Part shown: piece after piece, positions 8,899 through 12,218 of the stretch
Layout of the letters: each line of letters starts with the position of its first letter
Numbering within the stretch: position 1 is the stretch's first letter
NCBI GenBank assembly: GCA_016199215.1
Contig: JACQHB010000007.1
Location: 1 to 39,059, forward strand
Length of the DNA stretch: 39,059 bases
Direction of reading: 5' to 3'
From: Candidatus Doudnabacteria bacterium
Lineage (GTDB): Bacteria > Patescibacteriota > Doudnabacteria > UBA920 > O2-02-FULL-48-8
Translations under genes and position numbers: made by a program
The notes under the pieces: generated by a model
What the model was told of the DNA's origin: nothing
Seen by the model: only the letters and a program-made list of their open reading frames with translations
The model's database searches: none

Positions 8899-9984
8899 AT
8901 GTTCAACCTTTTGGGAAACAAAAAAATTGAAGCTTTCGGCCTGGATATTTCCAACGTTTCGATTAAGGCCATGATGCTCGGAAAGAAAAACAACGGGCTT
9001 TTTCCTTTGGCTTTTTCCGACATACAAATTCCCGGCAACATCATCTCAAACCATATGATTACCAATGAGGAAAAGCTTGCGGACCAGATCAAGCGAGCCG
9101 TGTCAGCCGCGGGCAAAATTTCCTCCAAATACGTGGTCGCCTCCGTGCCGGAAGCCAAATCTTTTGTCCGCCTGCTTAATCTGCCCAAGCTTTCCGAATC
9201 AGAATTGGATAGCTCCATCCCCTGGGAGTTGGAAGCCGATATTCCGGTGCCTGTGGACCAGGTTTACCTTGATTGGATGATTATTAACCAGCAGGGGGAC
9301 AAGCTGGACGTGCTGGTTATGGCCACTCCCAAGGATTACGTGGACACCTTGGTCTCTTCAATAAAGTCAGCCGGGTTCAAGCCTGCCGCCCTGGAACTGG
9401 AATCGCAGGCCACAGCCAGAGCGCTGGTTTCATCCGTGGATTCGTCTTCCGCTGTCTTGATTTTGGATATAGCGAGCATTTTGACAAGTTTTGTAATTAT
9501 TGAAAACGGGGTTTTGCAATACACGTCAAGCATTCCGCTGGGGGGCAACGCCTTGACCGAAAGCATTGCCAGAAACTTGGGGGTTTCCGCACCTGATGCG
9601 GAAAAAATGAAACGAGAATTAGGGCTTCTTTCGGACACCAAAAAAGGCAATATTCGGCAGGCAATCCTTCCGATCCTTGATAATATTGTTGATGAAATAA
9701 AAAATGTTGCCCGCTTTCATGAGGAGCATTCCGTGGGCAAAAAACCGATCAGCAAAGTGATTCTTGCGGGGGGTGGCGGAAAGCTGCTTGGCATCACCGA
9801 TTATATTTCAGCCCGCTTAAACCTGGGTGCGGCAAAACCGATTGGCCGAGTAGTGCTTGGGGATCCTTGGGTCAATGTGATTGATTCATCTATGAAGGAG
9901 CAAATCCCGCTGCCAAAAGAGCAAGCCCTTGGTTTGGCTACCGTAACCGGCCTTGCGCTGAGAGGGGCAAGCTATGCCCAGTAA
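8899..9984 (+). CDS. pilM: Type IV pilus assembly protein PilM
   Basis: A 361-aa actin/FtsA-like cytoplasmic protein. Residues 1-20 (IEAFGLDISNVSIKAMM) form the first phosphate loop of the fold. Further motifs are ALELESQATARAL, a second phosphate loop near VLILDIAS, and the adenosine motif VILAGGGGKLLGI near residue 290. PilM binds PilN at the inner membrane and links the ATPase to the envelope part of the machine. Its last codons (TAT GCC CAG TAA) come partly from the GIY-YIG element inserted at 9977. Without the element the reading would be TAT GTC TGA, overlapping the next gene's ATG. Confidence 0.93.
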   Translation: MFNLLGNKKIEAFGLDISNVSIKAMMLGKKNNGLFPLAFSDIQIPGNIISNHMITNEEKLADQIKRAVSAAGKISSKYVVASVPEAKSFVRLLNLPKLSESELDSSIPWELEADIPVPVDQVYLDWMIINQQGDKLDVLVMATPKDYVDTLVSSIKSAGFKPAALELESQATARALVSSVDSSSAVLILDIASILTSFVIIENGVLQYTSSIPLGGNALTESIARNLGVSAPDAEKMKRELGLLSDTKKGNIRQAILPILDNIVDEIKNVARFHEEHSVGKKPISKVILAGGGGKLLGITDYISARLNLGAAKPIGRVVLGDPWVNVIDSSMKEQIPLPKEQALGLATVTGLALRGASYAQ

Positions 9985-9997
9985 TACAACTTCGCGC

Positions 9998-10426
9998 ATG
10001 TTCTACTATGTTTACATCCTGGAAAGTTTATCAGATGGTAAGCGCTATATCGGTTTTACCGCCAATTTACGGCGTCGACTAGTAGAACATGAACGAGGAT
10101 TAAACTTTTCCACGAAGTTTCGACGCCCGTTTAAACTAATCTACTTTGAAGCCTGTTTATCCGAAAAAGATGCCAAACGCCGTGAGCATTATTTAAAATC
10201 AACCCAAGCCCAGTATGACAACTTCGATAATATTTTCTGGTTTGCTTTTGCTAATAAATTAACTTTTTTATTCTACATCTCTCTGATGCTAATATTTAAG
10301 TTTGTCTATTCAGAAAATATTAAAAAGCAAAAGCATCGAAGTTGCTCTACTGGGCAAGGTCGAAAGTTTACAGGTTTAAGATTAATCGAGTACCAGCGCC
10401 AATCGGCGTTTGGCACGCGAAGTTGA
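9998..10426 (+). CDS. GIY-YIG nuclease-domain protein carrying an in-frame 50-codon insertion
   Basis: The N-terminal part is a compact GIY-YIG domain: YYVYILES, then RYIGFTANLRRRLVEH with the conserved Arg, and a late Glu in RREHYLKS. Single-domain members of this family are usually about 80-100 aa. Here the frame is 142 aa from the ATG at 9998 (150 aa if read from 9974, which overlaps pilM). The excess is exactly the 50 codons added by the nested 146-bp element plus its 4-bp duplication, including a hydrophobic stretch (FANKLTFLFYISLMLIFKF). Excising it joins KSTQ to GRKFTGLRL, the expected family C-terminus, giving 92 aa. Activity of the interrupted form is doubtful. The intact form may be the enzyme that mobilises the element; this is inferred. 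Confidence 0.8.
   Translation: MFYYVYILESLSDGKRYIGFTANLRRRLVEHERGLNFSTKFRRPFKLIYFEACLSEKDAKRREHYLKSTQAQYDNFDNIFWFAFANKLTFLFYISLMLIFKFVYSENIKKQKHRSCSTGQGRKFTGLRLIEYQRQSAFGTRS
10209..10354. mobile_element. Nested 146-bp miniature element with CAAG target duplication
   Basis: The ends are CCCAGTATGACAACTTCG (10209-10226) and inverted CGAAGTTGCTCTACTGGG (10337-10354), followed inward by AT and by an AATATTTTCTG/CAGAAAATATT pair. The four bases CAAG occur on both sides (10205-10208 and 10355-10358). Insertion plus duplication is 150 bp, a multiple of three, so the host frame stays open. It has no coding capacity of its own. The ends match those of the surrounding GIY-YIG element, so it is probably a non-autonomous relative. 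Confidence 0.85.
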
Positions 10427-10436
10427 TATACTGGGT

Positions 10437-12218
10437 ATGTCTGACGAAATTTTTGACAAGGAATCTGCCGAAGAATTGTCCGAAAGCGTTCATCGCTCGG
10501 ATTCTTCCTGGAAGCAGTTTTTTCATAAGAACAAAAAAATTATCTACGCTTCGGCCGGCAGTTTGGTTGTGATCCTGCTTGCGGCATTGGGATGGATGAT
10601 TTTTTCAGGACAAAAACCAGGGGTGGGGCCTGCATCTAATAATGTCTTTGTCAAAATCAAAGGCCAGAGCCAAGTAACTTCCGGTAACGAAGGCAATTAC
10701 ACTGTTGTTTACACCAATGGCGAGGCCGCGGACTTAACCAATGTCACGCTGGAGCTTTTTTATCCGTTAAATTTTAAATTTATTTCCGCCACTCCTTCCC
10801 CGACCAATTCCGAAGGCCAAAGATTCAATCTGCCGACGCTTAAAAAGGGAGAGAACGCGGAAGTTAAAATTAAGGGACAGCTTGGGGGAGCAAGCGGCGA
10901 AATTAAAGAATTCAAGGCCAGGCTGACTTATTCTTTATCTAATTTTAATTCGGAATTTGTAACGGAAGACAGCTTCACGACCCTGATTCTCCCGCCTAAC
11001 TTAAGCGTGGAAATTACAGGCCCAATAGATGTAATTGGCGGCCAGGAGACCACGTTTTCCATCAATTATTCAAACGTATCAAGCCAGGCATTTGAGAATT
11101 TGGCCTTAATCGTGGCATATCCCTCGGGATTTAAATTTGCATCCAGCGTTCCGCCCCCTTCCAAGAACCAGAACTATTGGACAGTTCCAAAATTGGACAA
11201 GGGCGGTTTGGGAAAGATAGAAATCACGGGAAGCTTTTCCGCTTCCAACGCCGCTGATGCCATAGTAGGAGTAGAGCTCGGGCAAATAACCAACAATACT
11301 TTCGCGACGTTAATTAACAGCTCCGCGGTTTTTAAAACGACCCCATCATCGTTGTCTTTGACTTTAACAGCCAATCCTAAAGACGTTGTTTCGCTTGGCG
11401 ACAGCATTGAATACACCCTCGATTACGGGAATTTCGGAACTATCGGTTTGACAAACGTCGTGATAACGGCAAGCTTGCAAGGAACGGTTCTTGACTTAAC
11501 CAGATTAAATGTGAGGGACGCGATAGTTACCGGCAATGTTCTGACTTGGAAGTCGGCGACCAAAAGTGAACTGAACCTGGTTTCGCCCAACCAGAAAGGG
11601 AAAATAACCTTTTCTGTGCCCACCAAATCCTCGCTTACAACCAATATTAAAAACCAAACTATTGGGGCGTCAGCTTCGATTTACGCGGCTGAGGTTCCCA
11701 AGCCAGTCCACGTCCCGGATGTCAATTTGAAGTTGGCGACACAGCTAGGCTTGTCCGTAAGCGGCCGGTATGTCCGGGGAGCCTTGCCTATGAAGGTCGG
11801 CGAGTCAACGACCTTTGAGATAACTTTTATCCTGTCGAATTTAAGCAATGATCTTGAAAATGCGCAGGTAGTTTCCTCCTTGCTCCTGCCTTCTTCCTCC
11901 TGGAAAAATATTATCGCCCCTGATTCGGAAAAATCCAGGATTTCTTTCAACCCTGGAGCGGGCAAGATTATCTGGAAGATTCCGCAGGTTTCTGCTTTTG
12001 TCGGCAAGTACGCGCCGGCGCTTATGGCCTCGTTTGAGCTTGAGGTTATACCGACCGAAGCGGACAGAGGAAAGACTGTTAATCTTCTGAAAGATATTCA
12101 AGCAACAGGCAAAGACCTGTTCATTGGCAAGGATGTTTCATCGGGTAATGTTATTGACATAAACACGGCAAACATTGATGACGATCAGTTAAACCTGAAG
12201 GGAAGCGCAGTGCAGTAG
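10437..12218 (+). CDS. Membrane-anchored protein with Ig-like (DUF11-type) repeats, pilus operon
   Basis: A 593-aa protein. A short charged cytoplasmic N-terminus is followed by one membrane helix (about residues 36-57, IIYASAGSLVVILLAALGW) and a long extracytoplasmic part with about four domains of roughly 120 aa. Each contains patterns such as TVVYTNGEAADLTNVTLELFYP or FSINYSNVSSQAFENLALIVAYP, typical of DUF11-like beta-sandwich repeats. It occupies the position where pilN/pilO usually follow pilM, but no PilN or PilO motif is evident. The ORF track starts at a TTG (10410) within the mobile element; the ATG at 10437, formed by the target duplication, is preferred. Confidence 0.65.
   Translation: MSDEIFDKESAEELSESVHRSDSSWKQFFHKNKKIIYASAGSLVVILLAALGWMIFSGQKPGVGPASNNVFVKIKGQSQVTSGNEGNYTVVYTNGEAADLTNVTLELFYPLNFKFISATPSPTNSEGQRFNLPTLKKGENAEVKIKGQLGGASGEIKEFKARLTYSLSNFNSEFVTEDSFTTLILPPNLSVEITGPIDVIGGQETTFSINYSNVSSQAFENLALIVAYPSGFKFASSVPPPSKNQNYWTVPKLDKGGLGKIEITGSFSASNAADAIVGVELGQITNNTFATLINSSAVFKTTPSSLSLTLTANPKDVVSLGDSIEYTLDYGNFGTIGLTNVVITASLQGTVLDLTRLNVRDAIVTGNVLTWKSATKSELNLVSPNQKGKITFSVPTKSSLTTNIKNQTIGASASIYAAEVPKPVHVPDVNLKLATQLGLSVSGRYVRGALPMKVGESTTFEITFILSNLSNDLENAQVVSSLLLPSSSWKNIIAPDSEKSRISFNPGAGKIIWKIPQVSAFVGKYAPALMASFELEVIPTEADRGKTVNLLKDIQATGKDLFIGKDVSSGNVIDINTANIDDDQLNLKGSAVQ

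Follow-up and report, generated by a model that had tools for sequence, protein, structure and literature searches.

Several described systems come close to the element reported here, which consists of a single GIY-YIG gene between inverted ends and lies in a 39,059-nucleotide stretch of Candidatus Doudnabacteria DNA, referred to below as the window. The DDE insertion sequences and MITEs share with it the inverted ends, a short target duplication of fixed length, the occurrence in multiple copies, and short non-coding relatives with the same ends, while the element differs in that its sole gene encodes a GIY-YIG nuclease of about 100 aa, the unit measures only about 309 bp, its ends covary as a stem with a fixed unpaired triplet, and start codons are its apparent target. 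Terminal inverted repeats and a fixed-length duplication (4 bp in 30 of 45 short elements and 3–4 bp in the GIY-YIG copies) are thus present, but a DDE transposase is not, the 309 bp unit being one frame with a GIY-YIG domain only.

The GIY-YIG homing endonucleases, either of I-TevI type or freestanding, possess the same catalytic domain (PF01541), while the element has inverted ends, short duplications, many unrelated sites, and no intron; in place of a single cognate site, often intronic, 35 unrelated genes were found as hosts. The IS200/IS605 and REP/RAYT elements resemble it in imperfect end hairpins with conserved mismatches, an apparently strand-specific orientation, and tiny size; however, they use an HUH tyrosine transposase, produce no target duplication, and form a hairpin at each end, whereas the unit contains no HUH Y1 transposase domain and does show target duplication. 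In Penelope-like retroelements a GIY-YIG nuclease is also part of a mobile element, but the present 309 bp unit has one frame, no reverse transcriptase, and DNA ends. For GIY-YIG insertion sequences in rRNA genes of CPR bacteria, no matching intron is reported and spread by homing seems not to occur (PMC11270868); these are likewise lone GIY-YIG inserts in CPR, but they are confined to rRNA genes and the term “inverted repeat” is absent from the text of that paper. The structure-selective GIY-YIG nucleases UPF0213 and Slx1 are the nearest solved structures by both sequence and fold, but no mobility is known for them. In the open full-text literature searched, a lone GIY-YIG gene between inverted ends was nowhere described. 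We know of no GIY-YIG enzyme that carries out transposition and of no transposon family that uses one as its mover.

The locus in the window is composed of the following parts.

8899..9984, + strand: pilM (PilM_2, E 6.9e-45), its frame now ending inside the left inverted end
9973..9976: left flanking TATG, its ATG being the start of the GIY-YIG frame and, by comparison with relatives, the pilN start-codon site
9974..10426, + strand: GIY-YIG frame as present, 150 aa (Pfam PF01541, E 3.6e-15)
9977..9994, + strand: left inverted end, CCCAGTA-ATA-CAACTTCG, coding as PSNTTS
10205..10208 and 10355..10358: CAAG, left and right copies of the 4 bp duplication of the nested element
10209..10354: nested non-coding element of 146 bp with the same ends, a member of a MITE-like family
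10418..10435, − strand: right inverted end, reading CGAAGTTG-ATA-TACTGGG on the + strand, its ATA opposite the ATA of the left end
10424-10426: stop codon TGA of the GIY-YIG frame, within the right inverted end
10436..10439: right flanking TATG, which includes the start codon of the next gene downstream
10437..12218, + strand: membrane protein containing DUF11 repeats, with the duplicated ATG as its start

The earlier note had described this region as a GIY-YIG gene with matching inverted ends and TATG on both sides, and both features are exact, the ends reading CCCAGTANNNCAACTTCG. When stretches with CCC-type ends, at least 12 of 16 end positions complementary, and an exact 4 bp direct repeat were sought, only two were found in the window, the outer and the nested element, and none in its reversed sequence used as control. 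The nested element, overlooked in the earlier note, sits within the GIY-YIG gene, and its excision with one CAAG leaves 309 bp, precisely the size of intact relatives, and brings back their usual C-terminus, YLKSTQGRKF; the resulting unit reads MPSNTTSRMFYYVYILES...YLKSTQGRKFTGLRLIEYQRQSAFGTRS, stop, YTG, with one GIY-YIG frame. Since the insert amounts to 150 nt and is in frame, the interrupted frame stays open, and the insertion lies after all five presumed catalytic residues. The predicted size of about 92 aa agrees with a count from the ATG at 9998, while the full product from the ATG of the left TATG has 100 aa.

The 309 bp unit was also found at about 36 other loci in many CPR bacteria. 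Close homologues occur in Candidatus Doudnabacteria records, and the window belongs to a Doudnabacteria-like CPR genome. In a protein search covering 60 relatives the proteins of subfamily 1 showed 58–79% identity across their full length, and the same ends were present in all complete members; more widely, the same ends surround 58–88% identical proteins in many CPR lineages, the loci added from the genome collection belonging to Doudna-, Yanofsky-, Portnoy-, Roizman-, Magasanik-, Kerfeld-, Niyogi-, and Wolfebacteria and others. Thus the end pattern does recur as inverted pairs with a GIY-YIG gene between them, and the GIY-YIG protein encoded by intact copies in many CPR genomes has about 100 aa. 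The viral collection gave one distant match only. With automatic boundaries exact 4 bp repeats flank 23 of 36 copies, namely, 19 TATG, 3 ATGA (L159, L161, and L162), and 1 TGTG (L157, at a GTG start), and about nine more, roughly a quarter of the subfamily 1 copies, have a 3 bp ATG repeat only, which counts against the explanation preferred below. TATG is so common that the swapping of flanks is a weak test for the GIY-YIG copies, and the argument is carried by the rarer repeats and by the short elements. Two copies in one genome, L139 and L140, are identical over 309 bp with unrelated flanks (17/60 and 24/60 matches), a pair which shows recent movement. The transposon-like character of the unit is therefore supported by the 4 bp duplication in unique copies and in the non-coding relatives, together with this identical pair, and its mobility is well supported. 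No strain-level empty site was found. Two same-genus candidates were rejected: the atpG start is uninterrupted in genome G000, but the upstream sequence is not closely alignable, and no close purF is present in G002. At locus L171 a short element with similar ends follows the right end of the GIY-YIG unit at the same TATG start codon, so that TATG occurs three times.

The unit, with covarying inverted ends and a 3–4 bp direct repeat, is inserted at the start codons of many unrelated genes. The right end abuts an ATG or GTG opening a reading frame in 35 of 36 subfamily 1 loci (boundaries of L158 and L167 set by eye, otherwise automatic), and no two of the downstream proteins are homologous at E 1e-4; from reading the sequences we take these genes to include those for PurF (MCGIAG), topoisomerase I, ParA, ribosomal protein L15, RNase Y, and DnaG-like proteins. 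In most copies the first codon of the GIY-YIG frame is the ATG immediately outside the left end; the frame continues through that end and terminates at a TGA nine bases short of the right boundary, and the ATG that comes next is that of the host gene. According to this layout the element takes the host start codon and gives back a copy, and as the host gene restarts about ten bases further on, at the second ATG, translation of both genes is possible. A Shine-Dalgarno sequence upstream of the left ATG is mostly absent. Where the repeat is ATGA, and in other end families, the enzyme starts at an internal ATG, but several such copies are also located at start codons; a requirement for a start codon therefore cannot fully account for such sites, which may be either chosen targets or merely surviving insertions.

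The junction in the window itself requires a separate reading. It had been proposed that removal of the element with one TATG recreates a natural junction between pilM and the next gene, and this did not hold: the gene next after pilM in relatives is pilN, and the DUF11-type gene is located elsewhere, with another upstream neighbour and the same M23 peptidase gene downstream as in the window. An exact empty site for this junction is thereby rejected. At its left flank the junction matches the pilM/pilN start-codon site, at its right flank the start of the DUF11 gene, and it is therefore a hybrid; neither pilN nor the ileS stretch which lies upstream of the DUF11 gene in relatives was found in the window's own assembly (79% completeness). 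The two TATGs probably come from two different insertions, and consequently the 4 bp duplication rests on the other copies. The simplest reading is that two element copies, one per start codon, were fused by recombination or by the assembler; the join may thus represent misassembly or a deletion across element copies. In relatives other elements occupy the same start codons, that of pilN in G003 and G005 and that of the DUF11 homologue in G003, while the DUF11 start is empty in G006, G007, and G010. The elements at the pilN start of G003 (L224) and G005 (L226) are two different short ones at the same start codon in two genera, and in G005 the regenerated start is GTG with its first G from the element end. 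In the same-genus genome G001 the DUF11 contig likewise begins near the DUF11 start codon.

Of 22 positions, 17.3 match between the two ends of one copy, compared with 14.4 when arms are exchanged between copies (0 of 20,000 permutations). Counted as a stem, 98.2% of cells are paired, any slide destroys the pairing, and a conserved unpaired triplet, ATA facing ATA, interrupts it; compensatory double changes occur in 13 of the 17 base pairs, with 49 such cells against 7.3 in shuffles. Only 3 cells are G-U, and this near absence favours pairing or symmetry at the DNA level over RNA. An RNA-level explanation is further opposed by Rfam, where the nested hairpin gave only weak microRNA-like matches far below threshold.

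The inverted repeats are tied to GIY-YIG genes, a score of at least 12 being reached in 49 of 79 cases against 22 of 1362 at displaced control positions. The end families CCAGGTAGT, CCCCGTTAGAGAT, TCCCGTACGAAA, and CCCTGTTAAATAA are quite different, and each has its own GIY-YIG clade, in a tree of few columns and low deep support with rows L169 and L129 frame-shifted and misplaced. Divergence of the ends correlates with that of the proteins (Mantel r 0.71, n 63, 0/5000; 0.69 without subfamily 1). The invariant, presumably catalytic residues of the protein are Y14, Y25, R35, H39, and E71, and in a structure prediction with a mean pLDDT of 85 its closest neighbours are UPF0213 and Slx1. As Slx1 is a nuclease of branched DNA, a hairpin or cruciform as substrate of the GIY-YIG protein is a reasonable proposal from this model.

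The same ends also bound 45 distinct non-coding elements, mostly of 129–149 bp, the nested element included, and the exact 4 bp repeats among them compare with 3.4 expected from swapped flanks. Like MITEs, the nested element and 44 others are short and non-coding and have inverted ends with a duplication; we infer that their autonomous partner is the GIY-YIG element. Many are located at start codons. Eight with TTGA repeats, a small set, lie on TTGAC with a −10-like hexamer 16–18 bases further on, which matches in all eight at 4 or more of 6 positions and in four at 5 of 6, a match found at 3.6% of random positions; these elements therefore look like insertions into −35 boxes that leave the promoter whole.

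Such relatives raise the question of what moves the unit. It may be a non-autonomous transposon moved in trans by a conventional transposase encoded elsewhere, with the GIY-YIG gene as a passenger. Inverted ends with a short duplication are the usual mark of DDE transposons, the same-ended short elements outnumber the GIY-YIG copies, and genomes G005 and G008 contain short elements without a close subfamily 1 gene, which also weighs against the GIY-YIG protein as mover. However, in three genomes searched exhaustively for the end pattern (G003, G010, and G012) every end pair encloses either a short non-coding element or a GIY-YIG gene, no longer element with a conventional transposase was found among the paired ends, and no partner was found near unpaired ends. 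Moreover, several end families each enclose GIY-YIG and nothing else, and the ends follow GIY-YIG divergence outside subfamily 1 as well. A passenger role is thus unlikely.

Other GIY-YIG genes have different surroundings. Three in the window's own genome (C2:4380-4592, C1:3178-3390, and C6:38253-38462; L014, L019, and L020) and also L098, L131, and L134 are bordered on one side by an intact tRNA gene (Gln, Ser, Val) and on the other by a partial copy of the same tRNA, without the inverted ends; they constitute a second, tRNA-linked mode. At L099 (~1501-1731; G020:C6:40394) the gene lies between CCCCGTGAGATA and its inverted copy, and the stretch after it resembles RNase P RNA, with no Rfam RNase P call at threshold. 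In Flavobacteriaceae (L181, L184, L185, and L187) GIY-YIG genes have the ends ACCCATGAAAT and TCAA repeats and appear to be placed in a conserved GGAGF-coding motif, the 5′ part of the interrupted gene being apparently repeated downstream.

The tRNA-adjoining genes of the same genome, with their long partial duplications, resemble site-specific invasion, and GIY-YIG is a homing family; the unit might accordingly be a homing endonuclease gene that cuts cognate alleles and is copied in by homologous repair, its ends being control sequences. Nevertheless, the copies have unrelated flanks and their 35 host genes share no homology, neither short direct repeats nor covarying ends characterise homing, and no intron model matched above threshold, so that homing is very improbable here. 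Least credible of all is that only the short palindromic elements are mobile and a GIY-YIG gene was captured once between their ends: both kinds of element have the identical type of ends, but each end family has its own GIY-YIG clade, which would demand repeated capture, and the GIY-YIG frame uses the ends as its start and stop.

The probable explanation is therefore a minimal transposon-like element mobilised by its own GIY-YIG nuclease, although we infer the role of the protein as the enzyme moving the element from indirect evidence, which all points in one direction. A hairpin or cruciform formed by the paired ends, of 17 bp with a fixed 3x3 ATA/ATA loop, would be recognised by the protein and cut at its base, as structure-selective nucleases such as Slx1 cut branched DNA; the target would be cut with a 4-nt stagger, repair of which would give the 4 bp duplication, and the short non-coding elements would be mobilised in trans. 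Against this explanation count the chemistry, since GIY-YIG enzymes hydrolyse DNA and the known ones leave other overhangs, the origin of the compared genomes from metagenome assemblies, and the window copy itself, with its hybrid junction and interrupted gene.

With somewhat less confidence, we favour the view that a new class of DNA transposons is represented, whose transposase is a lone GIY-YIG nuclease of about 100 aa that reads the paired ends as a hairpin or cruciform, and whose insertion at start codons borrows and returns the host ATG. Several end families of this class would exist in CPR bacteria, and GIY-YIG genes of Bacteroidota, Omnitrophota, and Stahlbacteria are enclosed by related ends. 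The known DNA transposons rely on a handful of enzyme chemistries, and this would add the GIY-YIG fold, a nuclease fold that to our knowledge has never been assigned to transposition. If so, few autonomous mobile elements would be smaller than this one of ~309 bp; insertion at start codons would explain its survival in very compact genomes, and it would offer an explanation for the large number of unexplained lone GIY-YIG genes in CPR genomes.
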